A program made the translations under genes and the position numbers. Shown here piece by piece: positions 24,404 through 64,000 of a stretch of 64,000 nt of DNA (positions are counted from its first letter, which is position 1; every line of letters begins with the position of its first letter). The notes below the pieces were generated by a model. That model was not told the DNA's origin and ran no database searches. It saw only the letters and a program-made list of their open reading frames with translations. Source of the stretch: a virus. The stretch spans positions 62,001 to 126,000 of the IMG/VR virus record IMGVR_UViG_3300021963_000040. One strand, given 5' to 3'.

Positions 24404-24472
24404 TAAGAACAGCGTAAACTGTTATTAAGAAAAGTGTTCTGGACGCCGGTTCGACTCCGGCCAGGTCCACCA
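24404..24472 (+). ncRNA. ssrA: tmRNA acceptor piece (permuted, two-piece ssrA)
   Basis: This is the 3' half of a circularly permuted tmRNA. It ends with a five-pair T-arm (GCCGG, TTCGACT loop, CCGGC), then CAGGTCC, discriminator A and CCA. CAGGTCC pairs with GGGCCTG at the start of the coding piece (24676), with one G-U. Upstream, AGCGT, GTTATT and TGTTCTG pair with GCGCT, AATAAT and CAGGGCA of the coding piece, forming helix 2. The exact 5' end is set by processing and cannot be read here. Confidence 0.9.
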
Positions 24473-24483
24473 TAAGGGGAACT

Positions 24484-24663
24484 ATGAATACTGCTCTAGT
24501 TTGGGTTTTGTCGATTACTGTTTTAGGACCTGTTCCTGAACATAAAATATACGCCAAATATAAAACCAAACAAGAGTGTGAGCAAGCGTTAGAGCAATCT
24601 AAAGCAGAGTACAAGTTGCAGAAAAAGAATGTGTCTGCAACTTGTACTGTAACAATGAAATAG
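24484..24663 (+). CDS. small ORF inside the tmRNA intervening segment
   Basis: A 59-residue ORF lying wholly between the CCA of the acceptor piece and the 5' G of the coding piece. An AAGGGGA SD precedes the ATG. Residues 1-18 are hydrophobic (MNTALVWVLSITVLGPVP), resembling a signal or membrane segment; the rest is Lys/Glu-rich with two Cys (TKQECEQ, SATCTV), as in a small exported disulfide protein. It ends in TAG, one of only five visible TAG stops. Translation is likely but unproven. Confidence 0.55.
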   Translation: MNTALVWVLSITVLGPVPEHKIYAKYKTKQECEQALEQSKAEYKLQKKNVSATCTVTMK

Positions 24664-24675
24664 TATCCTTATGAT

Positions 24676-24856
24676 GGGCCTGCACTTGGTTTCGACAGGG
24701 CAAAGAGTAAGAATAATGGCGCTCGGGAATGTGAAACCCGTAGGATTGGGGTAACCCGGTCGAAGAAGCAAAAACGTAACTGCAAACGACGAACAGTTCG
24801 CATTAGCGGCCTAAACTCCGCTTAGGGTAGGAAATACCTCGTAACAGAAACAACCA
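24676..24856 (+). ncRNA. ssrA: tmRNA coding piece with ANDEQFALAA tag
   Basis: The 5' part of the tmRNA begins GGGCCTG and includes a D-loop-like GGTTTCGACAGG. It carries the tag frame at 24782-24811: resume codon GCA, then AAC GAC GAA CAG TTC GCA TTA GCG GCC, TAA. The encoded tag ANDEQFALAA (after the Ala charged on tmRNA) ends in the LAA signal recognised by ClpXP. A GGGTA/TACCT hairpin follows the tag. Ribosome rescue is the established role; the two-piece architecture is inferred from matching acceptor and helix-2 strands 200 bases upstream. Confidence 0.95.
24782..24814 (+). other. ssrA: ssrA proteolysis-tag reading frame
   Basis: Ten codons from the resume GCA to GCC, plus a TAA stop, encode ANDEQFALAA. 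The C-terminal LAA is the ClpX-binding degron, and the inner residues ANDEQ resemble the SspB/ClpA-contacting part of bacterial tags. Confidence 0.95.
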
Positions 24857-26577: not shown

Positions 26578-27561
26578 GTGAAAAAATTATTCGTGACACT
26601 ACTGGCGGCTTTGGCCGTTTCAGCACAAGCACAGCAAATAGCCGGTGCAGGAGCAACATTTCCTGCTCCGGTTTATTCTAAGTGGGCTTCAGAATACCAC
26701 AAAGAAACTAAAGTACAAATCAACTACGGCCCATTAGGTTCTGCAGGCGGTATCAAACAATTAGAAGCTAATACAGTTAGCTTTGGCGCCACTGACGATC
26801 CTATGAGCGTAGAAGATCTTAACAAGAGAGGGTGGCATCAGTTTCCTGCAGTCATAGGCGGGGTGGTACTGGTTGTTAACCTTAAAGGATTCCAACCCGG
26901 AGAAATCGTTCTTGACGGACAGACAGTAGCAGACATCTATGAAGGCAAAATTCTAAATTGGAACGATCCTAAGATTGCAAAACTTAATCCTAAATTAAAA
27001 TTACCAGACCAACCTATCACTGCGGTAATTAGAGCAGACGGATCTGGAACTACTGCGGTGTTTACAGACTACTTGTCACAGGTCAGCAAGAGTTTTAAAG
27101 AAAGCACTGGTGTAGGTAAGATGGTTAGTTGGAAACTAAAGCAAGTCAGTGCAGGTAAAGGTAACGCAGGTGTTGCCGCAATGGTACAGAACATGAACGG
27201 TGCCATTGGTTATGTTGAATATGCCTTTGCCAAACAAGGTAAGATGACACACGTAGCAATGTTAAACAAAGGCAAAGTCATACAGCCCGACGACTTAACA
27301 TTCAAACAAGCCACAAGTTCTGCTAATTGGAACACTCCAGGAATGGCTGTAAACTTAACCAACAAGGATGGTTGGCCAATCACAGCCGCTACCTTTGTGT
27401 TAGTATACAAAGAAGGCAATGCCAAGACACAGGATGTATTAAAATTCTTTGACTGGGCATTTACCAAAGGCGACAAGATGGCAGAAGACCTAGACTATGT
27501 ACCTTTACCTGACAAAGTAAAAGCACAGATCCGAGCAGACTGGGCAAAGAACATCAAATAG
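26578..27561 (+). CDS. pstS: periplasmic phosphate-binding protein PstS
   Basis: A 327-residue phosphate-binding lipid-free periplasmic protein. A signal peptide (MKKLFVTLLAALAVSAQA) precedes the diagnostic GAGATFPAPVYSKW. The phosphate-contact segments LGSAGG, RADGSGT and GKGNAGVA are all present. It would load phosphate onto the host PstCAB transporter during infection. The start is GTG with an AAGGAGAT SD. A Pho box lies upstream. The stop is TAG and overlaps a convergent small gene. Confidence 0.97.
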   Translation: MKKLFVTLLAALAVSAQAQQIAGAGATFPAPVYSKWASEYHKETKVQINYGPLGSAGGIKQLEANTVSFGATDDPMSVEDLNKRGWHQFPAVIGGVVLVVNLKGFQPGEIVLDGQTVADIYEGKILNWNDPKIAKLNPKLKLPDQPITAVIRADGSGTTAVFTDYLSQVSKSFKESTGVGKMVSWKLKQVSAGKGNAGVAAMVQNMNGAIGYVEYAFAKQGKMTHVAMLNKGKVIQPDDLTFKQATSSANWNTPGMAVNLTNKDGWPITAATFVLVYKEGNAKTQDVLKFFDWAFTKGDKMAEDLDYVPLPDKVKAQIRADWAKNIK

Positions 27562-50041: not shown

Positions 50042-50463
50042 GTGACTCTTCATCTTACCTAATTACTCCGCCGAGTATATTTTTACCGCGCCGCGGATTA
50101 ACCTTTTCTTTGATTACTAGAAACTCTAAATGGGTTGAAAACTTTATGGAAATGGCTGAGGATAAATTTCCCGGTACAACTGTAACGTTCTTTTCTTCTC
50201 ACGAAGATGCCGATTTAGAAAAATACGTTTGGACATTCCAGCATGCCACAATAGCAGATTTTGTTATTGTAGACATGGATTCAGCATCAGATACTGATAT
50301 TAACATTGCTCTTATTGTTAGTAAAGGTAAACGTGTTTGGTGGGAATTTTCAGACGAAGATAGTTATGTAACCCTACAAACTATTCTTAATGTTTCAGGT
50401 GCAGGTCTAGTAGACAGCACAGAAGAATTTTTTGAAATGATCAGTGACTTAGACAACGTATGA
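50038..50463 (+). CDS. hypothetical protein, Rossmann-like
   Basis: A 141-residue protein between the membrane protein and clpX, coupled to both by ATGA overlaps. ATIADFVIVDMDSASDTDINIALIVSKGKRVWWEF resembles the D-x-V-I-V-D...GK-x-V pattern seen in nucleoside deoxyribosyltransferase- and TIR-like folds, but this is a weak match. Confidence 0.58.
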   Translation: MSDSSSYLITPPSIFLPRRGLTFSLITRNSKWVENFMEMAEDKFPGTTVTFFSSHEDADLEKYVWTFQHATIADFVIVDMDSASDTDINIALIVSKGKRVWWEFSDEDSYVTLQTILNVSGAGLVDSTEEFFEMISDLDNV

Positions 50464-51692
50464 GTAAAAAAGAAGATACTTTAAGCTGTAGCTTTTGCGC
50501 CAAAGACCGCGAACAAGTTAAAAAAATGGTTGCAGGCCAAGATGTTTATATTTGTGACGAATGTATCGAACTTTGTTATCAAATACTAAAAGATGACAAA
50601 CACGAAGAAGCCAAAGAACAAGGGCAAGTTAGCACCCCAAGGCAAATGAAAGAATTCTTAGATCAGTATGTTATTGGTCAAGAGTATTCTAAGTTTGTGC
50701 TGGCTGTGGCTGTTTATAATCACTATAAACGCATCAACAACATTAACTCAACTACGGAAATCGACAAGAGCAATGTCCTGTTAATTGGTCCTACTGGATC
50801 CGGTAAGACACACCTAGCACGTACTATTGCTCGTATGTTAAATGTTCCATTTGCTATTGCAGATGCCACAAGTCTAACAGAATCAGGATATGTAGGCGAT
50901 GATGTAGAGCACGTTATACATCGTTTGTTAACCGCGGCAGGTAACGACATAACCAAAGCAGAACAGGGTATTGTTTACATTGATGAAATTGATAAAAAGG
51001 GTAAAAAAGGAGAAAGCACTTCAATTACTCGTGACGTATCAGGCGAAGGTGTACAACAAGCTCTGCTCAAACTAATTGAAGGTACAGAATGCCGTGTACC
51101 AACAGGCGGTGGCCGCAGACATCCCGGTCAAGATGGCACTATTGTAAACACTAAAAATATTCTATTCATCTTAGGCGGAGCGTTTGTAGGCTTAGATGAT
51201 ATTATTAATCGTCGTATTAACAAAGACAGTACTACTATTGGATTCAATACACGACTAGATACCAAGAAAGAATCTAAACTGAATCAAGTTGAACCGGAAG
51301 ATATTGTTAAGTTTGGATTAATCCCAGAACTTGTGGGACGTATTCCGGTTGTTGCTACACTAACAGAACTAACAACAGACGAATTAGTTCGTACGTTAAG
51401 AGAACCAAAACACAGCATAGTAAGCCAGTTTGAAGAACTATTTAAATTAGATGGTGTAGATTTAGAAATTACCGACGACGCCGCACTAGCCATGGCCCAA
51501 GAGTGCATAGATAAAAAATTAGGGGCTCGAGGATTACGTGCTGTTATTGAAAGAACATTGCTTAAAACGCAATTTGAGTTACCAGAACTACGCGAACAAG
51601 GAGTTGTGCGTGTTACAGTAACTCCGGAAAGTGTTGCAGGTGCAACACCGATTTATCTTTACAAAGGAGAAGAGCAGTCTAACCATGTTTAA
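50460..51692 (+). CDS. clpX: ATP-dependent protease ATPase subunit ClpX
   Basis: A 410-residue unfoldase with all main features. A zinc-binding domain has C10, C13, C32 and C35. Walker A GPTGSGKT is at 110-117 and Walker B IVYIDE at 171-176. Pore loop GYVG is at 143-146 and arginine finger R294 in LVGRIP. RRH at 219-221 stands where E. coli ClpX has the RKH loop that reads ssrA tags. IGF at 260-262 is the ClpP-docking loop. It should therefore still dock ClpP and pull ssrA-tagged proteins. It overlaps infC by 8 bases. Confidence 0.97.
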
Positions 51693-52263
51693 ACCTAACT
51701 TTAAACAACGATCCAGAACCAACAGGCCAATGAGCCCCATGGATCAGTTAAAACAAAAATATCAAATCAACGAACAGATCACCAGTCATCAAGTTCGAGT
51801 GATTGATCAAGAAGGTAATCCATTGGGAATTATGAGTCGCAGTCAAGCACTTAATAATGCCCGAGACCAAGAAATGGATTTGGTTATGATTGTCCCTCAA
51901 GCACAACCACCGCTTTGCAAAATTATTGACTTTGGGAAATTTGCTTACAACGAGCAAAAGAAACTAAAAGAACAAGAACGTAAGCAAAGGGAAAGTCGTG
52001 TAGATGTAAAGGAAATGCAGTTCCGCCCTGCTATTGATGATCACGACTTTGAAGTCAAAGTTAAAAAAGTACGTGAGATTCTTGACGACGGAGATAAATG
52101 TCGTATAGTTATACGTTTCCGTGGCAGGGAAATGCAAGACACTGGTAAGGGCTTTGAAATTATTAAAAAGATTACCGAACTGGTTGAGGGCTCTCAAATT
52201 GAGGGTCGTGCAGAGCTCGCAGGCAATAGAGTATCAGCAATACTTATGAAAGGTAAAAAATGA
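51685..52263 (+). CDS. infC: translation initiation factor IF-3
   Basis: A full-length 192-residue IF3. The N-domain (YQINEQITSHQVRVIDQEGNPLGIMS...) and C-domain (KEMQFRPAIDDHDFEVKVKKVREIL...RFRGREM) are both intact. IF3 binds the 30S subunit, prevents 70S joining and rejects non-canonical starts and leaderless messages. I chose ATG 51685, which overlaps the clpX end; unlike most bacterial infC genes it does not use AUU. It couples to rpsU by ATGA. A phage-encoded IF3 could change host initiation. Confidence 0.95.
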   Translation: MFKPNFKQRSRTNRPMSPMDQLKQKYQINEQITSHQVRVIDQEGNPLGIMSRSQALNNARDQEMDLVMIVPQAQPPLCKIIDFGKFAYNEQKKLKEQERKQRESRVDVKEMQFRPAIDDHDFEVKVKKVREILDDGDKCRIVIRFRGREMQDTGKGFEIIKKITELVEGSQIEGRAELAGNRVSAILMKGKK

Positions 52264-52502
52264 AAGACCGTAACAAAGACAGAGCCTGTCGCGGTGTGCA
52301 TGTTGTAGTTTGGAACGACAACGTTGAAAAAGCACTAAGAACTTTTAAGAAGAAAGTTGCCGATTTAGGTACATTAAAAACTCTACGTGATAAAGAGTTT
52401 TACGAAAAGCCAACTACTGTTCGTAAACGCAAAGCCGGCGCGGCCAAATCACGTTGGAAAAAATATCTACGCAGTCAACAACTTCCGCCAAAACTTTATT
52501 AA
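52260..52502 (+). CDS. rpsU: ribosomal protein bS21
   Basis: An 80-residue basic protein with the S21 pattern (VHVVVWNDNVEKALRTFKKKVADLGTLKTLRDKEFYEKPTTVRKRK). bS21 sits near the anti-SD on the 30S subunit and helps mRNA selection. Phage-encoded S21 is known from several aquatic phages and can replace the host copy. It is coupled to infC by ATGA, making an initiation-factor/ribosomal-protein cassette. Confidence 0.93.
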   Translation: MKDRNKDRACRGVHVVVWNDNVEKALRTFKKKVADLGTLKTLRDKEFYEKPTTVRKRKAGAAKSRWKKYLRSQQLPPKLY

Positions 52503-52505
52503 CTA

Positions 52506-52534
52506 TTGACTTAATGATAGAATTCTGTTATAAA
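52506..52534 (+). promoter_or_regulatory. sigma70-type promoter
   Basis: TTGACT, a 17-base spacer and TATAAA upstream of the Hsp20 gene. Confidence 0.75.
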
Positions 52535-52591
52535 TATATTTGTAGGACGCCATAAGGGTTCTACTTAAACTCGCTTAATAAGGAGAAATTT

Positions 52592-53032
52592 ATGAACGCA
52601 TTAACTCGTTTTGATACAAACGCCCTAGCTCAATTGAACAGAGCACTTGTTGGGTTCGATCGTATGTTTGATAACTTTGAAGTACGACTCGGACAGCATA
52701 CCAACAACTATCCACCTCACAATGTTGTAAAAACAGGCGAAGATACTTACCGTATTGAAGTTGCTGTTGCAGGATTCACTATGGAAGAAATCGATGTAGA
52801 GGTAGACAACAATGAGCTGATCATCAAAGGGCAAATCAAACGTTCCGATGATGCCAGCTACGAATATCTACATCGTGGTCTAGCACGTCGTGACTTTGAG
52901 CGTAGATTTACTTTGGTAGACTACATTGAAGTTAATGGTGCTAGCATTAGCAATGGTATTCTAAACGTTGAACTCAAACGTGTAGTACCAGATGCAATGA
53001 AACCACGCAAGATTGCAATTTCTGCATCTTGA
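52592..53032 (+). CDS. small heat-shock protein Hsp20 (IbpA-like)
   Basis: A 146-residue alpha-crystallin-domain chaperone, domain about 37-135, with (YRIEVAVAGF, DVEVDNNELIIKGQ, ARRDFERRFTL). The expected C-terminal IxI-type patch may be the KIAIS end. Hsp20 is recurrent in T4-like cyanophages and probably protects proteins during assembly. It has a strong SD (AAGGAGAA), a promoter of its own, and ClpS follows. Confidence 0.92.
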   Translation: MNALTRFDTNALAQLNRALVGFDRMFDNFEVRLGQHTNNYPPHNVVKTGEDTYRIEVAVAGFTMEEIDVEVDNNELIIKGQIKRSDDASYEYLHRGLARRDFERRFTLVDYIEVNGASISNGILNVELKRVVPDAMKPRKIAISAS

Positions 53033-53038
53033 TAAACC

Positions 53039-53056
53039 AGGGGAGGAAACTCCCCT
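53039..53056 (+). other. GAAA-tetraloop hairpin between hsp20 and clpS
   Basis: AGGGGAG, GAAA and CTCCCCT form a perfect 7-bp hairpin with a GNRA-type tetraloop and no T-run. It is more likely an mRNA stability element than a terminator. Confidence 0.6.
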
Positions 53057-53072
53057 ACTATTAAATAATATT

Positions 53073-53375
53073 ATGGCCAAGACAGAAACCGCAATCAAAG
53101 AACGTTCAGTTACTAAAGTTAAAAAACCTAGTATGTTTAAGGTTATCTTTAATAACGATAACAAGACTCCCATGGACTTTGTTGTAGAAGTTCTAATGAT
53201 AATTTTCCGCCATGACCAAAAATCTGCAGAACATATTACACTAGAAATACACAATAAAGGCAAAGGCGTAGCAGGTGTTTATACTTACGAAATTGCCGAA
53301 CAGAAAACCGTTGAAACAACAGCCGCCGCACGTCAGAACGGGTTCCCACTAACAGTTAGTGTCGAACCAGAATAA
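53073..53375 (+). CDS. clpS: ClpS-like N-degron adaptor
   Basis: A 100-residue adaptor from ATG 53073. FNNDNKTPMDFVVEVL and LEIHNKGKGVAGVYTYEIAEQK match the ClpS core. The N-degron pocket residues map as D29, Asn30 (normally Asp), Met34 and His60, so the pocket is nearly intact. ClpS usually serves ClpA; only ClpX is seen in this window, so it may redirect host ClpAP or use the phage ClpX. The longer frame starting inside hsp20 is rejected. Confidence 0.92.
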   Translation: MAKTETAIKERSVTKVKKPSMFKVIFNNDNKTPMDFVVEVLMIIFRHDQKSAEHITLEIHNKGKGVAGVYTYEIAEQKTVETTAAARQNGFPLTVSVEPE

Positions 53376-53388
53376 CTCCCAATAAATT

Positions 53389-54513
53389 ATGCGTATCCTA
53401 GAAGATATCAAGTTAGATTTCCGCGACGTTTTAATCTTACCAAAACGTAGCACACTAGCAAGCCGCCGCGAAGTTGATCTTCACAGAAATTTTGTATTCC
53501 GAAACAGCGGAGAAGGCTATCAAGGTATACCAATCATGGCCGCCAATATGGATGGCGTAGGTACATTCGAAATGGCAGAAGCTCTTGCAGAACAAGGTAT
53601 GTTTACTTGTATACGCAAGCAATATACAGTTCAAGAATGGACTGATTGGTACAATTATATTAAAGAAAATAACGCCAACTACCGGGCTATAATTTCCGAC
53701 AATATTGCTATTAGTACAGGAACTAGTGAATCAGACTTTGAAAAATTAAAAGCAATTACAGATAGTATCCCTGGCATTCGATTTATCTGCATCGACATCG
53801 CCAATGGATATTCGGAACATTTTGGCGATTATGTAGCAAAAGTACGCAGTAAGTTCTTTAATAAAGTTATCATTGCCGGTAATGTAGTAACCGGAGATAT
53901 GACACAAGAACTAATTTTACGTGGTGCGGATATTGTTAAAGTGGGGATCGGGCCTGGCTCTGTTTGTACTACTCGTGTGCAAACTGGAGTAGGCTATCCA
54001 CAACTTAGTGCTATTATTGAATGCGCCGATGCCGCTCACGGGCTTAACGGACAAATCATTGCTGATGGCGGCTGTACTTGTCCCGGTGATGTTGCCAAGG
54101 CTTTTGGCGCCGGCGCAGACTTTGTAATGCTAGGCGGTATGCTAGCAGGACACGTTGAAGGTGGCGGCGAAATTATTCAAAAATTATACGAAACAAATGA
54201 ATTTGGACCAATGGATCAAGGTGACCATGCACCTTCAAAGAAAATTGAAGTTAAAAAGTTTGTGCAGTTTTATGGCATGAGTTCAGATACCGCTATGGGC
54301 AAGCACTCGGGCGGAGTAGCAGAATATCGTAGCAGTGAGGGTCGTACGGTCACAGTACCATATCGTGGTGCAGTAAAGTCTACTGTACTAGACTTTCTAG
54401 GCGGTCTGCGTAGTACCTGCACTTATGTAGGAGCCCCTACCCTAAAACAACTGCCAAAATGTACTACTTTTGTACGGGTAAATCGGCAGATCAATGACGT
54501 ATTTCTTGGTTGA
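53389..54513 (+). CDS. guaC: GMP reductase
   Basis: A 374-residue IMPDH/GMPR barrel enzyme. GPGSVCTTR with catalytic C193, and [27 protein letters not shown], define the family. The absence of a CBS domain separates it from IMP dehydrogenase. It converts GMP to IMP with NADPH, recycling purines for phage DNA synthesis. It follows clpS by 13 bases. Confidence 0.92.
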
Positions 54514-57491: not shown

Positions 57492-57568
57492 GGGCCTATA
57501 GCTCAGTTGGTTAGAGCAGGCGACTCATAATCGCTTGGTCACAGGTTCGAGTCCTGTTGGGCCCACCA
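57492..57568 (+). tRNA. tRNA-Ile2 (CAU anticodon, lysidine type)
   Basis: A complete 77-base cloverleaf with encoded CCA. The anticodon loop CTCATAA gives CAU. The anticodon stem and variable region (GGCGA...TCGCTTGGTC) match E. coli ileX (tRNA-Ile2), not elongator Met. After TilS modifies C34 to lysidine, it reads AUA, a codon expected to be frequent in this AT-rich genome. Confidence 0.88.
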
Positions 57569-57573
57569 TAATT

Positions 57574-58245
57574 ATGATTAAATATGAACCCGTTCCGTTA
57601 AGCGAACATGATAATTTACTAGGTGCAAATTTTGCTAATAATTTTGCACAAGAGATGAAGGCGTATTATGCGCCTTTTCTCGCCAAAGGACGTAAAATAC
57701 AGCTGGCCAAAGAAACTTGGGAATATGGAGTAGCGGACAGTATACCCGGAGCAGAATGGATAGGTAGCGGTAATAGCGTAGTAGATGTTCAAGCCCCATT
57801 ATGCGGTCTGGATGTTAAAGGCCTAAGTACCAGCAAGCTAGGAAAAGAAACTACCGAAGCCAGTTTTCTACAGAACTTACAAAAAGGTGCCGACGGATAT
57901 TCACAAGCATGGCACAATAAAGATTGGCTAACACTAAAGAATATTTTTGTTGATCCCTTAACAGCAAAAACAACTGGTATTAATAATTTACATTTACTGG
58001 TAATTGTTCGCACAAAGAATGATCAGGCGGTGCATTACGGTTTGCTTAAGGCCAGTCCGAGTGTGCTGACCGCCGAAGAATTTGTGGCAAAAATGTTTCA
58101 ACATGCAGGCCGTACAGTTAACGTGCCAATCATTGACACAGAATTTGGTAGGACTTATATCTGCATCAGCAAACGTCGATTAGAACTTAGAATCAACACC
58201 GAAGGCTTTGCGCCCTACTTAAAGTACAGTCATTCTAGTATCTGA
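57574..58245 (+). CDS. hypothetical protein, possible restriction-endonuclease fold
   Basis: A 223-residue protein from ATG 57574; the longer frame runs back into the tRNA. VVDVQAPLCGLDVKGLS near 68-84 could be the D...(D/E)xK motif of a PD-(D/E)XK nuclease; this is a weak inference. No other assignment is possible. Confidence 0.55.
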   Translation: MIKYEPVPLSEHDNLLGANFANNFAQEMKAYYAPFLAKGRKIQLAKETWEYGVADSIPGAEWIGSGNSVVDVQAPLCGLDVKGLSTSKLGKETTEASFLQNLQKGADGYSQAWHNKDWLTLKNIFVDPLTAKTTGINNLHLLVIVRTKNDQAVHYGLLKASPSVLTAEEFVAKMFQHAGRTVNVPIIDTEFGRTYICISKRRLELRINTEGFAPYLKYSHSSI

Positions 58246-58265
58246 CTCATTTGTTAAGTAATGCT

Positions 58266-58982
58266 ATGAATGGTTATATATTAATTCATGGCAAAAACTC
58301 CGGTCCCAGTAGACCTGACTGTGCAATGGGTGTGCTGGCTAGAAAATTACTTGATCATGGTCTAGTTGATTATCAAATTTACCCTTGGCAATGGAATAAT
58401 TTATATTCGAACACTTACGAAAGTTGTTTAGTGCAGATCAAATCCGCACGTGAACGACTTACAGCACAAGGTGCTACCCGTATACACCTAATAGGTCACA
58501 GTCTAGGCGGCAATGCAGTTATATATTATGCTAGTTTATATCAAGATTATTCTAGCTTTATTTTACTAGCACCTGCACACAATACTGAAATTCCTTTTAT
58601 TAATTGGTTGACCAATTGGAGTGTGGCACAATGTCATAGGGCTATTAGTGCAGGCCGCGGAGATGAACCTATGAGCCTTATTGATTTTAATGTAGATCGT
58701 GTTTATACCCAATGGGTTACTCCTAATAGATATCTTAATTTTTTTAGTCGAGAAGGTCCGGCTAATATGACACAAAATGCTGGCCGTATCCTAAACCGAC
58801 CACATGTCTATTGTATTGCACCAACAGAAGATACTACACAGACCAGCACTGAAGAATATCTATGGTCAAAACTTAAAGTAAGTGATCAAAGTGTTTTTGT
58901 TAGACCTAACGATACACACAACGGTGCGGCCCGTAACTATCATTTAGACATAGTTAACTGGGTAGATAATCTTCCCAAATAG
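58266..58982 (+). CDS. alpha/beta hydrolase
   Basis: A 238-residue protein with YILIHGKNSGP (oxyanion) and GHSLGG with nucleophile S79. Late segments PNDTHNGAARNYHLDI supply candidate acid and His. It lacks a signal peptide. It is distinct from the shorter hydrolase at 23589. It ends in TAG. Confidence 0.82.
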   Translation: MNGYILIHGKNSGPSRPDCAMGVLARKLLDHGLVDYQIYPWQWNNLYSNTYESCLVQIKSARERLTAQGATRIHLIGHSLGGNAVIYYASLYQDYSSFILLAPAHNTEIPFINWLTNWSVAQCHRAISAGRGDEPMSLIDFNVDRVYTQWVTPNRYLNFFSREGPANMTQNAGRILNRPHVYCIAPTEDTTQTSTEEYLWSKLKVSDQSVFVRPNDTHNGAARNYHLDIVNWVDNLPK

Positions 58983-59010: not shown

Positions 59011-59016
59011 TAAATA
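59011..59016 (+). promoter_or_regulatory. TAAATA late-promoter-like motif before csgF
   Basis: GCGTAAATATCTATA lies 40 bases before the csgF start, which suggests the curli cluster is transcribed late. Confidence 0.42.
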
Positions 59017-59056
59017 TCTATATGCCGTCGTGGTCTCTATGGCGGCGGGAGTAGAT

Positions 59057-59497
59057 ATGAAAAAGACGCTATTCATACTTGCCAGTACAATAACTTTAAC
59101 TGCACACACAGCGCCATTGGACTTTGGATTTAAAAATCCTAGTTTTAGCGGAGTAGGTTTTAGCAGTCATGTTCTCACGATTGAGAACCAAGAAGCTACT
59201 CGCAAGAAGGCTTTAGAAGATAAGATACAGTCTGCTATAGACAAGGCCAAGGCCGATGCAAAGAATACAAATTTGCAGAAATTCTTAAACAATTTAGAGT
59301 CAAGAATTTACGCACAAATATCACAGAATTTAGCTACTGCAATGTTTGCTTCTGGCGGAAGTAACAGCGGCAGTTTAAATTTTGAAGGTAACACAATATT
59401 TTGGACTAAAGATAGTTCTAATGTTTATCTAACTGTAACTGATACAGTAGGTAATCAAACACAAATTACTGTACCATTGGGTCAGTTCCAATTCTAA
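59057..59497 (+). CDS. csgF: curli assembly protein CsgF
   Basis: A 146-residue secreted protein from ATG 59057, with a GGGAG SD. A signal peptide of about 20 residues is followed by FGFKNPSFSGVGFSSHVL, which matches the CsgF N-terminus that inserts into the CsgG pore. Later FFDxx-free strands end in VYLTVTDTVGNQTQITVPLGQFQF, like the family end. CsgF holds curlin at the cell surface. csgG starts one base after its stop. Confidence 0.85.
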   Translation: MKKTLFILASTITLTAHTAPLDFGFKNPSFSGVGFSSHVLTIENQEATRKKALEDKIQSAIDKAKADAKNTNLQKFLNNLESRIYAQISQNLATAMFASGGSNSGSLNFEGNTIFWTKDSSNVYLTVTDTVGNQTQITVPLGQFQF

Positions 59498-59498
59498 T

Positions 59499-60446
59499 AT
59501 GAAAAAATTATTACTATTAGCGTTGGTAACAACTGTATTAAGCGGATGCGCTGTTTTACATAACGCAGGTTCTTTAGAAACAGATCCGACTGTAACAAGT
59601 CAACGTGAAGCAGTTAAAAAAGAATTTGACACTATTCCTGCACCTAAGGCCGGACGTCCTATATCAGTAGCTGTTTATAGTTTCCAGGACAAAACAGGTC
59701 AACGTAGACCTCAAGCAAATATTGCCAGTCTAAGTACAGCAGTAACACAGGGAGCAGAGTCATTTTTAATTCAGGCCCTACAAAATGTAGGTGGTGGTAA
59801 ATGGTTTGAAGTAGTTGAACGTGTTGGTGTTGATAACTTAACAAAAGAACGTTTAATTATTCGTCAAATGCGTGAAGCATACGAAGGCGCTAATGCCAAA
59901 CCATTGATGCCTTTGCAATTTGCGGGAATGATTATTGAAGGTGGTATAATTGGTTATGACCAAAGTACATCCAGCGGCGGTGCAGGCATGCGTGTATTTG
60001 GTTTAGGAAAACAAAGTCAATGGAGCCAAGATGTAGTTACCATTAGTCTTAGAGCAGTTAGCGTTAATACAGGTAAAGTACTGTTAACGGTTACAGTACA
60101 AAAAACTATATTAAGCACATCAGATGGTTTAACTTCAGTTAAATTCTTTGATATGGGAACTAAAGCATTTGAAGCAGAAGCAGGATTAACTATCAATGAG
60201 CCCGGTACTTATGCTGTTAAATCCGCAGTAGAGATGGCCGTTGTAGAATTAATTAAAGAAGGCCGAAAGAAGGATATTTGGGCCTTCAAAGAGGGGGAAG
60301 CAGATGACATGGTTCAAAAGAAGTCCGAGAGCAAAACCACTGGCGAAACAAAGCCATCACTTTCACAGTCCAATGAGTCAGCAGATACTGGCTCAAACAA
60401 CAGAAGAACAGAGAACAACAACAACCCACACCCAGAAAACAGATAA
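59499..60446 (+). CDS. csgG: curli secretion channel CsgG
   Basis: A 315-residue outer-membrane lipoprotein. A signal peptide ends in lipobox LSGC with C17. The conserved CsgG core follows (VAVYSFQDKTGQRRPQA, ALQNVGGGKWFEVVERVGVDNLTKER, ISLRAVSVNTGKVL, FFDMGTKAFEAEAGLTINEP). CsgG forms a nonameric pore exporting curlin. An extra disordered Glu/Ser/Asn tail (about 275-315) is unlike bacterial CsgG. It is the best-supported gene of the cluster. Confidence 0.95.
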   Translation: MKKLLLLALVTTVLSGCAVLHNAGSLETDPTVTSQREAVKKEFDTIPAPKAGRPISVAVYSFQDKTGQRRPQANIASLSTAVTQGAESFLIQALQNVGGGKWFEVVERVGVDNLTKERLIIRQMREAYEGANAKPLMPLQFAGMIIEGGIIGYDQSTSSGGAGMRVFGLGKQSQWSQDVVTISLRAVSVNTGKVLLTVTVQKTILSTSDGLTSVKFFDMGTKAFEAEAGLTINEPGTYAVKSAVEMAVVELIKEGRKKDIWAFKEGEADDMVQKKSESKTTGETKPSLSQSNESADTGSNNRRTENNNNPHPENR

Positions 60447-60536
60447 AAAGAAAAAGAAAGAATAACCTAAGTGCAGTACCGGCTTTGGTTGTTTAAAATA
60501 TATATGGAGCTCGTTCAATAAACGATGTAAAATGAA

Positions 60537-61343
60537 ATGAAGAAAACTAAAAGTCCAAGTAAAACAATACTAGCTGGTCTATTGTTTAGTTTAATTGGTA
60601 CAAGTGCGTTAGCTGTTGATAACAGTATTTTTATCGACCAAGCGGGAGATAACGCACAAATTACCGTACTACAAGACGGAGCGGGTAATAGAATTAAAGG
60701 TATATTACCAAGCGGTAATGTCGGCCAGCAAACTGATCCTGCAAAAATAACAGGGGACGGTATCCAATTGGCTATATCACAGGTTGGTGCAGGCAATATA
60801 CTATCTCTGGGTATTAATTCATCTACTGCGGCAGGTGGATCAGCTACGAATGTTACTTTAAACGCCACTGGCGATAACAATACAGCAAAAATTAATTTAA
60901 ACAATGCCGGCACCGCAGGAGCTAACCAAAGCACTACGTTAACATTAACACAAACTGGCGATGGTAATGATGCTGATATTAATATCCTAGGCACCAGCAA
61001 CTTGGTTAACGTAAGCCAAGCTGGAGGAAATGGTATTCTTGTAGCAACTATTAACGCAAATAACACTACTTCTACTGTTACACAAACAGGAACTGGTGGA
61101 GACAGTACAACACTTAATTTGTCAAGTTCTAAAGGTACAGTTGACATTACTACTGCCGGTGGTACAAACACCACAAGCGTAACACAAACTGGTACAGCCG
61201 GAACGCTTGGTCATTATACTAAGGTCGATATTTCTGGTGCTGGTAATAATACTACAATTCAGCAAGGTGGTAGTATTGATACTACAGTCAACTTAAAGAG
61301 TGTAGGATCCGGCAATACCTTTAACATTAACACACACAATTAA
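60537..61343 (+). CDS. curlin-like amyloid subunit (CsgA/B type)
   Basis: A 268-residue protein with a signal peptide (ending TSALA). It then has about ten short repeats of the (S/T)Q.G..N.(A/I)xIxx type, for example IDQAGDNAQITVLQDGAGN, LTQTGDGNDADINI, VTQTGTGGDSTTLNL, IQQGG. This is the Gln/Asn-rich beta-strand repeat pattern of curlins. It is longer than the bacterial CsgA. The 90-base gap from csgG shows no clear promoter. Confidence 0.88.
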   Translation: MKKTKSPSKTILAGLLFSLIGTSALAVDNSIFIDQAGDNAQITVLQDGAGNRIKGILPSGNVGQQTDPAKITGDGIQLAISQVGAGNILSLGINSSTAAGGSATNVTLNATGDNNTAKINLNNAGTAGANQSTTLTLTQTGDGNDADINILGTSNLVNVSQAGGNGILVATINANNTTSTVTQTGTGGDSTTLNLSSSKGTVDITTAGGTNTTSVTQTGTAGTLGHYTKVDISGAGNNTTIQQGGSIDTTVNLKSVGSGNTFNINTHN

Positions 61344-61344
61344 A

Positions 61345-62472
61345 ATGCGAGTTCTTACTTTGACATTGATTTGTATTGCCTTGAGTACCGGGGCAGGAGC
61401 AAGTCCTGTAGGCAAAGTAACTGAACAAACAAATGCTATTTCTAATATTATTAGAGAAAAACAAACGTTGTCTGCTCCTAAAGGAACAGGCGTTGAAATG
61501 AATGATGCTATCAAAACAGCACAGGGTAAAGTTGGTATTACATTTGAAGATGATACAAAAGTTCAGATCACTGAAAATAGCAAATTAATAATAGATGACT
61601 TTGTATATGACCCAAAAAGTAAAAGCGGGGGCAAGTTGGCCGTTAAAGTAGCATTAGGAACAGTACGTTATGCTTCAGGACAGATCGCTAAAACTAATCC
61701 GCAAAGTGTTGCTGTCAATACGCCTACTGCTACTATTGGGGTACGTGGGACTGATTTTACGGCTACTGTGGACGAAGTAGGGGCTAGCACAATTATTTTG
61801 TTACCTAGTTGTCCCGACAATTATAGAAACAAAATAGGATTTGATATTGCCAAAGATTGTAAAACAGGAACTATTGAAGTCAGCACTGACGTGGGTACTG
61901 TTATTTTAAATCAACCATTTCAGGCAACAAAGGTATCCAGCAGAAGTGCGCCTCCTCCTGCTCCAGTTTTATTAAAGTTAACCGAAGATGCAATTGGTAA
62001 CATTCTTATTTTAGCACCACCTAAAGAATTCAAGCAAGAACAGCATCAAACTAAAATAGATATGCGAGGAGCACTAGATGTAGACTTTCTTAAAGAAACA
62101 GGACTGGTAAACATATTAGATAAACAAAGCGCAGAAATATTTCAGGACAGCTTATCTCGTAACTTTTTAGACAATACATTTTTATTGAACATTTTAGATA
62201 TTGTCAACGCACAATTAGCGGCCCAGCTAGATTTACTCAATAGCACTAAGAGTGGACTATTACCAGACTATTTTGCATTAAGCGGTATTATTGCTACAGT
62301 TGACGAAGGCAGTTCAGTCACTCTCAGTAGAGACGATGGTAGCAACGTAATGAGCGTTACAGTTCCATATCATCAAAATAGTTTGATAATTATGAATCAA
62401 GCCAACATGGAATTTAAGAATAGAGTTAATACAGGGAATACTAGTACAACTATTAGTATAACACAAAAATGA
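61345..62472 (+). CDS. FecR-domain secreted protein
   Basis: A 375-residue protein with a signal peptide (ends GAGA). A FecR domain spans about 35-150: VGITFEDDTKVQITENSKLIIDDFVYDP, VALGTVRYASG and the signature TPTATIGVRGTDF. In bacteria FecR-domain proteins are periplasmic signalling or surface-matrix proteins. The C-terminal half is of unknown fold. It lies between two curlin genes and overlaps the second by ATGA. Confidence 0.82.
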   Translation: MRVLTLTLICIALSTGAGASPVGKVTEQTNAISNIIREKQTLSAPKGTGVEMNDAIKTAQGKVGITFEDDTKVQITENSKLIIDDFVYDPKSKSGGKLAVKVALGTVRYASGQIAKTNPQSVAVNTPTATIGVRGTDFTATVDEVGASTIILLPSCPDNYRNKIGFDIAKDCKTGTIEVSTDVGTVILNQPFQATKVSSRSAPPPAPVLLKLTEDAIGNILILAPPKEFKQEQHQTKIDMRGALDVDFLKETGLVNILDKQSAEIFQDSLSRNFLDNTFLLNILDIVNAQLAAQLDLLNSTKSGLLPDYFALSGIIATVDEGSSVTLSRDDGSNVMSVTVPYHQNSLIIMNQANMEFKNRVNTGNTSTTISITQK

Positions 62473-63062
62473 TGAGATTACCTGTTGTTATATTTTTATT
62501 ACTTTGTATGATAGTAAGTTGTACGGCAACTGTTTTTGCTGACAATACAATTATTGTTGATCAAATCGGTGACAACAATTCTTTTACTTTAGAACAAAAA
62601 GATGCTACTAACAATTATATTCGCATTAGAACAGGTACTATTAGCAATGTTGACTATACATTATTTTCAGTATTACAACAAGGTACAGGAAATAAAATTG
62701 CAGACTTTGAAATCAAAAGCGGTATAAACAATAATGTTACAACAATTCAAGATGGCACAGGTAATCATAAAGCCAGTATCATTGCATTTAACGGATCCGG
62801 TAATAACATATCTGTTAATCAGTCCGGCGCAGGCAATCATGAATTTAAAGTTGATAACTGGAATAATTCTGTTAACAACGGTAACACAATCACAGCTACA
62901 CAATCAGGAGGCGTTGGTGCCGACAAATGGTTTGCTGTAAACCTAAATGGTGCTACAGGTGCTAGCGTATCTGTAATACAAAACAATCCTACTACCCCAG
63001 ATCAAGCAAGTATGTTAATACAATGTAACCCTTGCGGATCATATAGTTATGTTAGAAATTAA
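62469..63062 (+). CDS. second curlin-like protein
   Basis: A 197-residue protein with a signal peptide (MMRLPVVIFLLLCMIVSCTATVFA; a Cys in it could act as a lipobox). Repeats DQIGDNNSFTLEQ, QQGTGNKIADFEI, QDGTGNHKASII, NQSGAGNHEFKV and TQSGGVGADKW follow. The more divergent first repeats may fit a CsgB-like nucleator. It is coupled to the FecR gene. Confidence 0.85.
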   Translation: MMRLPVVIFLLLCMIVSCTATVFADNTIIVDQIGDNNSFTLEQKDATNNYIRIRTGTISNVDYTLFSVLQQGTGNKIADFEIKSGINNNVTTIQDGTGNHKASIIAFNGSGNNISVNQSGAGNHEFKVDNWNNSVNNGNTITATQSGGVGADKWFAVNLNGATGASVSVIQNNPTTPDQASMLIQCNPCGSYSYVRN

Positions 63063-63106
63063 CAGTAACTATTAAACTCTGTGGTTAATTTGCGATGCAG
63101 TACACG

Positions 63107-63112
63107 TAAATA
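63107..63112 (+). promoter_or_regulatory. TAAATA late-promoter-like motif
   Basis: CGTAAATACTAGT lies 27 bases before the 63140 start. Confidence 0.42.
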
Positions 63113-63139
63113 CTAGTACAGTAGTTTTTGGAGGGGTCC

Positions 63140-64000
63140 ATGAATAAACTAATTAAGGCTCTAATAGCCTCTTTTGTCTTGTCTGCAGGTATTTCGCAGG
63201 CACAAACCTTAGACCTAAGTCTAAGTTCATCTGGTTGGGTATCAGGTGGTAACACCGGGCAAACACAAACCGGCAACTATATGGATACTGGTGTAGGTGT
63301 ACAATCTGCAACAGGAGCACAAACTATCGCATGTTGCGGTCCTAACACATGGGTAATTAGTCCATATACCGGCAGTACCATGCTAGGTATGCAACCAGGA
63401 AATACACAGAACTATTCTACAATGACATCTTCATTGGGTCTAAGTTCTGCTAGCGTATCAGCGTTAAACGCACAAGTTGCTTCCCAAGGTGGTAGCATTA
63501 CTAGCACGGCATGGATCAGTAAAGATTTTACATTCCAGGCCAATACACAATTTAAAATGGCATGGAACTATATCAGTACAGACTACGTTCCATTTAATGA
63601 TGGTAGCTTGACCAGTTTAGTTAACACTGGTTCTGCATCTACACTAGGTAAGATTAACGGCGTAACAGCTGAGTACTTACTGTTAGGCGCAACCAATCCA
63701 GGCACAGGTAACTACTCTACAGGTAGCTACGGTTCAACTGGCTGGCAATGGGTCAACTATGATATTACAACAGCGGGTACTTATAAATTAGGCTTTGCAA
63801 TTTTTAATCAAGGCGATACAGCACTAAGTCCTGTATTATTTGTTAACGATGGTTTAGGAACTACAACAAAGAACGGAACAGCATTTAACCCTGTTGCACC
63901 AAACGATCCTAATATGCCGACTACTAATCCAGATGGTACAGTAAGTGGAGGTGGTGGTTCAACACCTAGTGCTCCTACAGTAGTAAGCACGGCCAATGGT
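63140..64000 (+). CDS. large secreted protein, 3' end outside the window
   Basis: At least 287 residues, open to the last base. A signal peptide (MNKLIKALIASFVLSAGISQAQ) precedes a beta-rich domain with WNYISTDYVPFNDGSLTSL and WVNYDITTAGTYKLGFAIFNQGD, a pattern I associate with jelly-roll domains of surface and adhesin proteins. A Gly/Pro/Thr-rich linker starts near 260. SD GGAGGGG. It follows the curli genes and may be a further surface component. Confidence 0.75.
   Translation, partial: MNKLIKALIASFVLSAGISQAQTLDLSLSSSGWVSGGNTGQTQTGNYMDTGVGVQSATGAQTIACCGPNTWVISPYTGSTMLGMQPGNTQNYSTMTSSLGLSSASVSALNAQVASQGGSITSTAWISKDFTFQANTQFKMAWNYISTDYVPFNDGSLTSLVNTGSASTLGKINGVTAEYLLLGATNPGTGNYSTGSYGSTGWQWVNYDITTAGTYKLGFAIFNQGDTALSPVLFVNDGLGTTTKNGTAFNPVAPNDPNMPTTNPDGTVSGGGGSTPSAPTVVSTANG

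Follow-up and report, generated by a model that had tools for sequence, protein, structure and literature searches.

A phage-borne type VIII secretion (curli) cassette with a companion autotransporter and its proposed role at the surface of infected cells

Introduction

What a phage might gain from curli genes is an open question to which competing answers have been published for marine phages, including a lysis pore and the capture of cells. The question is raised again by a 64,000-nucleotide stretch of viral DNA (hereafter the window), which corresponds to bases 62001-126000 of the 134,798-base IMG/VR record IMGVR_UViG_3300021963_000040 and ends in a cluster of curli biogenesis genes. CsgF and CsgG were reported from pelagimyophages in 2020, when 'sibling capture' was proposed (PMC7029224). 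In 2022, a lysis pore along the lines of a pinholin or secretin was proposed for the phage Melnitz, in which csgA/B were held to be absent (PMC9004378), and the pore, CsgF, CsgA/B, FecR and a cyclase were described in marine podo- and myophages (PMC9599517). The original prediction for this locus, made from the sequence alone, took the joint presence of pore, cap and amyloid subunits to be new. The same combination is already found in the phages HTVC008M and Melnitz and in PMC9599517; the phage curli module is therefore known in kind, and its combination of genes is not new.

Here, we present an analysis of this cassette, its relatives and its possible function. We estimate at roughly 0.6 the probability that the window phage carries a type VIII secretion (curli) module whose products, probably late in infection, cover the surface of the infected cell with adhesive amyloid together with an autotransporter adhesin. 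The record continues for 8.8 kb beyond the end of the window, and window numbering is continued into this extension (locus L002; window number = L002 + 55999). It carries no statement of completeness and may be a fragment, and negative results given below for the record hold for these bases.

The curli secretion genes

The six genes of the original prediction, encoding CsgF, CsgG, two curlin-repeat proteins, a FecR-domain protein and a large secreted protein, are all real and lie in this set head to tail and in order on the plus strand at 59057-64000. csgF (59057-59497; Pfam CsgF, E 2.7e-15; phrog_35372, 1.8e-61) encodes a predicted secreted partner of CsgG. csgG (59499-60446) encodes a putative outer-membrane lipoprotein export pore, matching Pfam CsgG (E 3.8e-48) and, by profile, CsgG in the PDB (E 3.5e-93). 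The first curlin gene (60537-61343) encodes a predicted secreted amyloid subunit with three Q-x-G-x-x-N repeat motifs, and the second (62469-63062), also covered by the slot census described below, a secreted curlin-repeat protein by prediction; both are above the Curlin_rpt cut-off (8.6e-6 and 2.5e-6, respectively). Sec-type signal peptides are predicted for all six proteins, and the lipobox of CsgG reads LSGC.

The window phage combines a CsgG lipoprotein pore, a CsgF with a CsgG-docking N-terminus and two signal-peptide-bearing curlins, as expected of a type VIII secretion system (T8SS), and the genes of the secretion path are all intact and linked in the record. Its CsgF contains the segment F-G-F-K-N-P-S-F-S-G, and hence the docking pattern F-x-F-x-N-P-x-F, whose residues correspond to F24, F26, N28, P29 and F31 of enterobacterial CsgF; mutants have identified F24, F26 and F31 as essential for CsgG binding (summarised in PMC12311626). 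As these docking residues are kept, CsgG and CsgF should together make up an exporter of the ordinary kind and not a stand-alone hole. A phmmer search of CsgF against the PDB gave chance matches only. No match to CsgE (PF10627) was found in the 134.8-kb record, under conditions in which the E. coli control matched. CsgE, the periplasmic gate, is an accessory component that is absent from many non-enterobacterial curli operons. Two proteins encoded immediately before csgF, at 57535-58245 and 58251-58982 (the latter an alpha/beta hydrolase), were excluded from the cassette because they lie beside csgF in no other locus.

Conservation of the cassette among viruses

For CsgG, searches of IMG/VR yielded 47 loci; for FecR, they gave at least 562 candidate relatives, of which 80 were kept. 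Of the 112 distinct FecR loci from viruses, 103 have enough sequence upstream of FecR to be judged, and all 103 carry csgF and csgG there. Of 60 testable viral loci, 54 have a cyclase gene after FecR in the same orientation, and in three more this gene is inverted; in locus L186 it directly overlaps FecR.

This synteny bears on a mis-join, considered in the original prediction, by which host DNA would have been attached to the phage contig. Bacterial curli operons do exist, and one marine Hyphomonas metagenome-assembled genome (MAG) shares the gene order; yet the same cassette occurs in more than 100 independent viral contigs and in two cultured phage lineages, and the window cassette has phage neighbours on both sides. 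Base composition is continuous over 58-60 kb. The conserved synteny excludes a join with host DNA, to which we assign a negligible probability.

The CsgG of the window phage is 43-78% identical to other phage CsgG proteins and falls into a phage-only clade of 27 rows (support of 96 in the SH-like approximate likelihood ratio test), apart from Melnitz and HTVC008M. Phage CsgGs cluster apart from bacterial ones, except for a stray Salmonella-phage scaffold (L009), and the Hyphomonas sequence sits on a long, unresolved branch. A Salmonella phage match to CsgG (H7) was rejected as a phage gene, being on an unannotated 1.5-kb scaffold that is likely host DNA. Among the best 80 bacterial genome matches to CsgG, FecR and a CHASE2 cyclase were present only in viral-looking contigs and in the one Hyphomonas MAG.

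In this MAG, curli genes in the phage-type order, along with FecR and the CHASE2 cyclase, stand amid bacterial genes on a 705-kb contig (L061:9336-15431). Such a FecR occurs in one of 105 genomes of its family, and the MAG's lineage may have donated the phage cassette or received it. Six further contigs from genome collections (L057, L058, L059, L060, L062 and L063), assigned to Rhodobacteraceae, Pirellulales, Flavobacteriaceae and Pelagibacter, have phage CsgG relatives, with FecR and cyclase or phage neighbours, and look like mis-binned phage contigs.

The autotransporter and the head-swapping slot

The large secreted protein runs off the window (63140-64000, plus strand) and ends at 65200 in the extension. 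Its 686 residues comprise a signal peptide, a head (residues 1-255), a linker and a translocator barrel (about 440-686). In its AlphaFold model, the mean predicted local distance difference test (pLDDT) score is 71.7, with most of the barrel at 80-94, and Foldseek aligns the model to the translocator of the autotransporter NalP (E 8.5e-12; template modelling score of 0.83 on the target). The 686-residue protein has no Pfam match anywhere, including its head; homologous proteins in the same slot match Pfam Autotransporter at 3.6e-19. By its modelled fold, the large secreted protein is a predicted autotransporter adhesin.

Comparison of these sequences shows the interval between the FecR and cyclase genes to be a site of head swapping, at which PA14/GLEYA, F5/8-type-C or other heads are joined either to an autotransporter barrel or to curlin repeats. 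The first curlin motif begins at least 150 residues in for 34 slot proteins, and 56 of the 82 listed slot open reading frames (ORFs) finish with a Cys-Cys signature. Curlin 2 of the window phage carries this C-terminal signature, typical of the proteins at its position (slot 2), and has no N-terminal head. Pfam families found in 48 scanned slot-2 proteins were PA14 (8), GLEYA (4), F5/8-type-C (4), Curlin_rpt (13) and Autotransporter (3). The head of the window autotransporter recurs on curlin-repeat proteins in L039, L040, L041 and L045 and in L147 and L148. Its barrel, in turn, carries different heads in L033, L035, L196, L173, L186, L030 and L215. Such a distribution amounts to domain swapping between two display routes.

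The secreted FecR-domain protein

Between the two curlin genes lies the gene for the FecR-domain protein (61345-62472, plus strand; Pfam FecR, 1.6e-9, residues 55-149). Its signal peptide stands directly ahead of the periplasmic FecR domain, and there is no N-terminal cytoplasmic sigma-binding part. A search of the FecR profile against PDB sequences gave no match. The AlphaFold model matches the PupR/FecR surface-signalling fold (probability 1.00) and also the 'cell surface anchoring domain' of PDB 5ix9 (probability 1.00; 63 columns; root-mean-square deviation 1.2; E 0.019). A curlin-like strand motif occupies the last 14 residues in 99 of 110 relatives; among other stretches of this length, 4% have it. 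As this C-terminus has no match to Pfam Curlin_rpt, it was retained as a strand motif and not as a full curlin repeat.

No FecI-like sigma factor (Sigma70_r4_2) was matched in the 134.8-kb record. With the cytoplasmic part missing as well, a role for the FecR-domain protein as an iron or sigma regulator was rejected; it is probably a periplasmic anchor or nucleator that links the fibre to the pore.

Cyclase, peptidase and flanking membrane proteins

Extending the window past 64 kb, as the original prediction had recommended, completed the 686-residue protein and revealed two further genes on the plus strand. The first (65286-67373) encodes a 695-residue CHASE2 adenylate cyclase (CHASE2, 1.4e-40; cyclase, 1.3e-21), whose motifs LFSDIRGFT, KYIGDA and LGDAVNLSSRLE provide the full set of class III residues, namely the two metal-binding Asp, the adenine-recognising Lys/Asp, and the transition-state Asn and Arg. 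The second (67373-68215), overlapping it by one base, encodes a predicted S11 D,D-carboxypeptidase (2.9e-34) with SITK, SDN and KTG motifs. A non-specific endonuclease gene lies beyond it on the opposite strand. No protein binding cyclic nucleotides was found in the record, and the idea of a phage-borne cAMP receptor was dropped; any cAMP would therefore act through the host.

Two paralogous proteins of phrog_18771, a family without known function, are encoded on the minus strand at 69137-69451 and 70602-70880 (L002:13138-13452 and L002:14603-14881). Such pairs (90-105 residues, one transmembrane segment) lie beside the cassette in nearly every viral locus that extends far enough to reveal them. 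In Melnitz and HTVC008M they immediately precede csgF; in the window phage they follow the cyclase on the opposite strand. One of the two weakly matches the holin family phrog_4898 (1.9e-4 over 20 residues), and no kinase domain was found in either. The short upstream gene is called a histidine kinase in PMC9599517, whereas the upstream genes in Melnitz and HTVC008M encode two phrog_18771 proteins; these may be the genes so named.

Four other loci have, a short way ahead of csgF, a small ORF similar to the helical domain at the C-terminal end of the cyclase (L015:8421-8891, L026:9162-9482, L033:8939-9403 and L035:9073-9432). This ORF is not seen in the window phage.

Promoter motif and timing

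A late-promoter-like motif, TAAATA[CT], precedes csgF (59011-59018, plus strand; a consensus match only), and the same motif precedes the genes for portal, tail sheath, autotransporter and cyclase, as well as some non-structural genes. Of its 59 matches in the genome, 31 lie upstream of an ORF on the same strand, and 25 of these 31 precede plus-strand ORFs, compared with 5 opposite-strand matches in the same zones. The exact sequence TATAAATA is not enriched; the shorter motif is. This pattern suggests that the cassette is expressed late in infection.

Proposed function and alternatives

In the proposed mechanism, CsgG and CsgF would form the export pore and curlin 1 the main fibre subunit. 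Curlin 2 and its slot-2 relatives would bear binding heads on curlin repeats; in the window phage, the head would be displayed on the autotransporter barrel. The FecR-domain protein would tie the fibre to the pore from the periplasm, the CHASE2 cyclase could act as a periplasm-sensing source of cAMP in the inner membrane, and trimming of peptidoglycan to allow assembly may fall to the S11 peptidase. For the phage, the gain would probably lie in keeping neighbouring host cells close to the coming burst. Retention of the docking residues together with the late-type motifs argues for an infected cell whose surface becomes adhesive late on, and slot-2 heads of adhesive types (PA14, GLEYA and F5/8-type-C) are consistent with adhesion. 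A more elaborate version, in which infected cells are made into adhesive traps by a widespread phage module with a dedicated, rapidly evolving slot for the exchange of heads among phages and between the curlin-fibre and autotransporter display routes, a FecR fibre anchor and a CHASE2 cyclase that reports assembly across the envelope, is put forward tentatively and seems to us somewhat improbable as a whole. If true, it would give the virus an encoded choice of the cells or particles to which the infected cell sticks.

Several points weigh against this proposal. No clumping of cells was seen in cultures with the isolate Melnitz (PMC9004378). The head of the window autotransporter is poorly modelled (pLDDT 31-79) and matches no Pfam family. 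Export without CsgE may be leaky. The transition-state Asn, kept in the window phage, is replaced by Ser in 48 of 105 related cyclases. Finally, the idea of a FecR anchor relies on a short strand motif without a Curlin_rpt match and on a weak fold match (E 0.019).

Of the uses listed in the original prediction, aggregation of infected cells accounts best for the cassette. Masking of the cell surface by fibres and adhesins, which would block superinfection by other phages, is compatible with the same gene content, and surface amyloid can limit phage access, as suggested in PMC9599517; we nevertheless think it unlikely, given that exclusion is most useful early whereas the promoter motifs look late, and that lectin-like heads varying between phages are not needed to mask a receptor. 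The use of the CsgG(F) pore as a lysis-timing or permeabilising device, with the fibre genes incidental, appears less likely still. It was proposed in PMC9004378 and fits both the late-type motif and the absence of a CsgE gate from the matches in the record. However, csgA/B were taken to be absent in that paper, while the Melnitz record (L007, 9812-12606) annotates two curlin-repeat genes in the cluster. Moreover, the docking Phe, Asn and Pro residues of CsgF are retained across divergent phages, along with curlins and slot-2 proteins, as are substrate and adhesin genes in the window phage; CsgG is an outer-membrane pore, whereas pinholins act on the inner membrane; and a separate pair of small one-transmembrane proteins flanks the cassette, one with a weak holin-family match. 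Permeabilisation through CsgG, also listed in the original prediction, has fared poorly on the same grounds.

Two other readings are given very little weight. An open CsgG channel could import nutrients or cofactors for the infected cell, in line with the lack of a CsgE match in the record and with the iron uptake that the FecR name suggested in PMC9599517. Import would leave the curlins, autotransporter and heads unexplained, and the window FecR lacks the cytoplasmic regulator part, with no sigma-70 region-4 protein found in the record. Decoration of released virions, which we rate marginally lower, would agree with a late-type motif common to structural genes, but all subunits have Sec signals and an encoded export pore, and so are bound outside the cytoplasm, where virions assemble. 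What shifts the balance towards late adhesion of infected cells is the autotransporter together with the adhesive heads joined to curlin repeats, and these are concrete proteins to test. If infection does make plankton cells sticky, phages would have an influence on both aggregation and sinking in water.

Genome context

The window virus is, from its gene matches, a T4-type phage. PHROGs families are matched by its major capsid protein, portal, sheath, tape measure, terminase, gp32-like and UvsX-like proteins. The capsid (67-69% identity) and portal (51%) resemble most closely those of large, jumbo T4-like phages such as Phosso, CBB, PA5oct and Atu_ph07, and not those of pelagimyophages.

A permuted (two-piece) tmRNA gene with the tag ANDEQFALAA lies at 24411-24814 and loosely narrows the host range; two tRNAs are also present in the window. 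A PstS-like phosphate-binding protein is encoded at 26578-27561 (PBP_like_2, 5.8e-36). Host-type genes for ClpX-like, IF-3, bS21, Hsp20, ClpS and GMP reductase/IMPDH proteins form a run at 50460-54513; Hsp20, ClpS and bS21 are phage-type neighbours that recur close to the curli cassette in many related loci. Elsewhere, a tandem series of similar proteins of 200-220 residues (L004:268-2799), behind a protein of 3484 residues (L003:8342-18796), is probably a tail-fibre array.

Comparison with known systems

By word searches of open-licence papers, five features appear not to have been described so far: interchangeable binding heads in a phage curli set, an autotransporter adhesin within it, a branch with jumbo-T4-like capsids carrying the cassette, a secreted FecR with a curlin-like last strand and no sigma factor in the record, and a paralogous pair of small membrane proteins flanking nearly every cassette. 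PMC9599517 uses none of the terms adhesin, lectin, PA14 and autotransporter.

The closest cultured counterparts are the Pelagibacter phage HTVC008M (NC_020484) and the Methylophilales phage Melnitz (MZ577097), which share with the window phage the order csgF-csgG-curlin-FecR-curlin-CHASE2/cyclase and two small flanking membrane proteins. Their CsgG is about 43% identical to that of the window phage and lies outside its phage-only clade; the window phage, unlike them, adds the autotransporter adhesin and the S11 D,D-peptidase and has capsid and portal proteins nearest to jumbo T4-like phages. The T8SS module of pelagiphages has the same core set, with FecR and adenylate cyclase linked (PMC9599517). 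There, FecR is read as an iron-dependent regulator, whereas the window FecR is a predicted secreted protein. FecR-type anti-sigma regulators share its FecR domain; their sigma-binding part is missing here, and no cognate sigma factor was matched in the record. Given that CsgG and CsgF are almost always linked to a CHASE2 cyclase and a secreted FecR-domain protein, the regulatory role assigned to FecR in the literature appears to need revision.

Beyond phages, the bacterial curli operons of Sphingomonadales, Rhizobiales and others likewise have adjacent csgF, csgG and curlin genes. Type Va autotransporters such as NalP and EstA resemble the 686-residue protein in having a signal peptide, a passenger and a C-terminal translocator barrel ending in Phe; the phage protein differs in being encoded inside a phage curli cluster and in having a passenger without a Pfam match. 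PA14 and GLEYA heads like those on the slot-2 proteins of related phages are found on the Flo/PA14 flocculins of yeast and on bacterial PA14 lectin adhesins. The window phage has no PA14 head, and in its relatives, unlike in flocculins and PA14 lectin adhesins, the stalk that carries these heads is a curlin-repeat amyloid by prediction.

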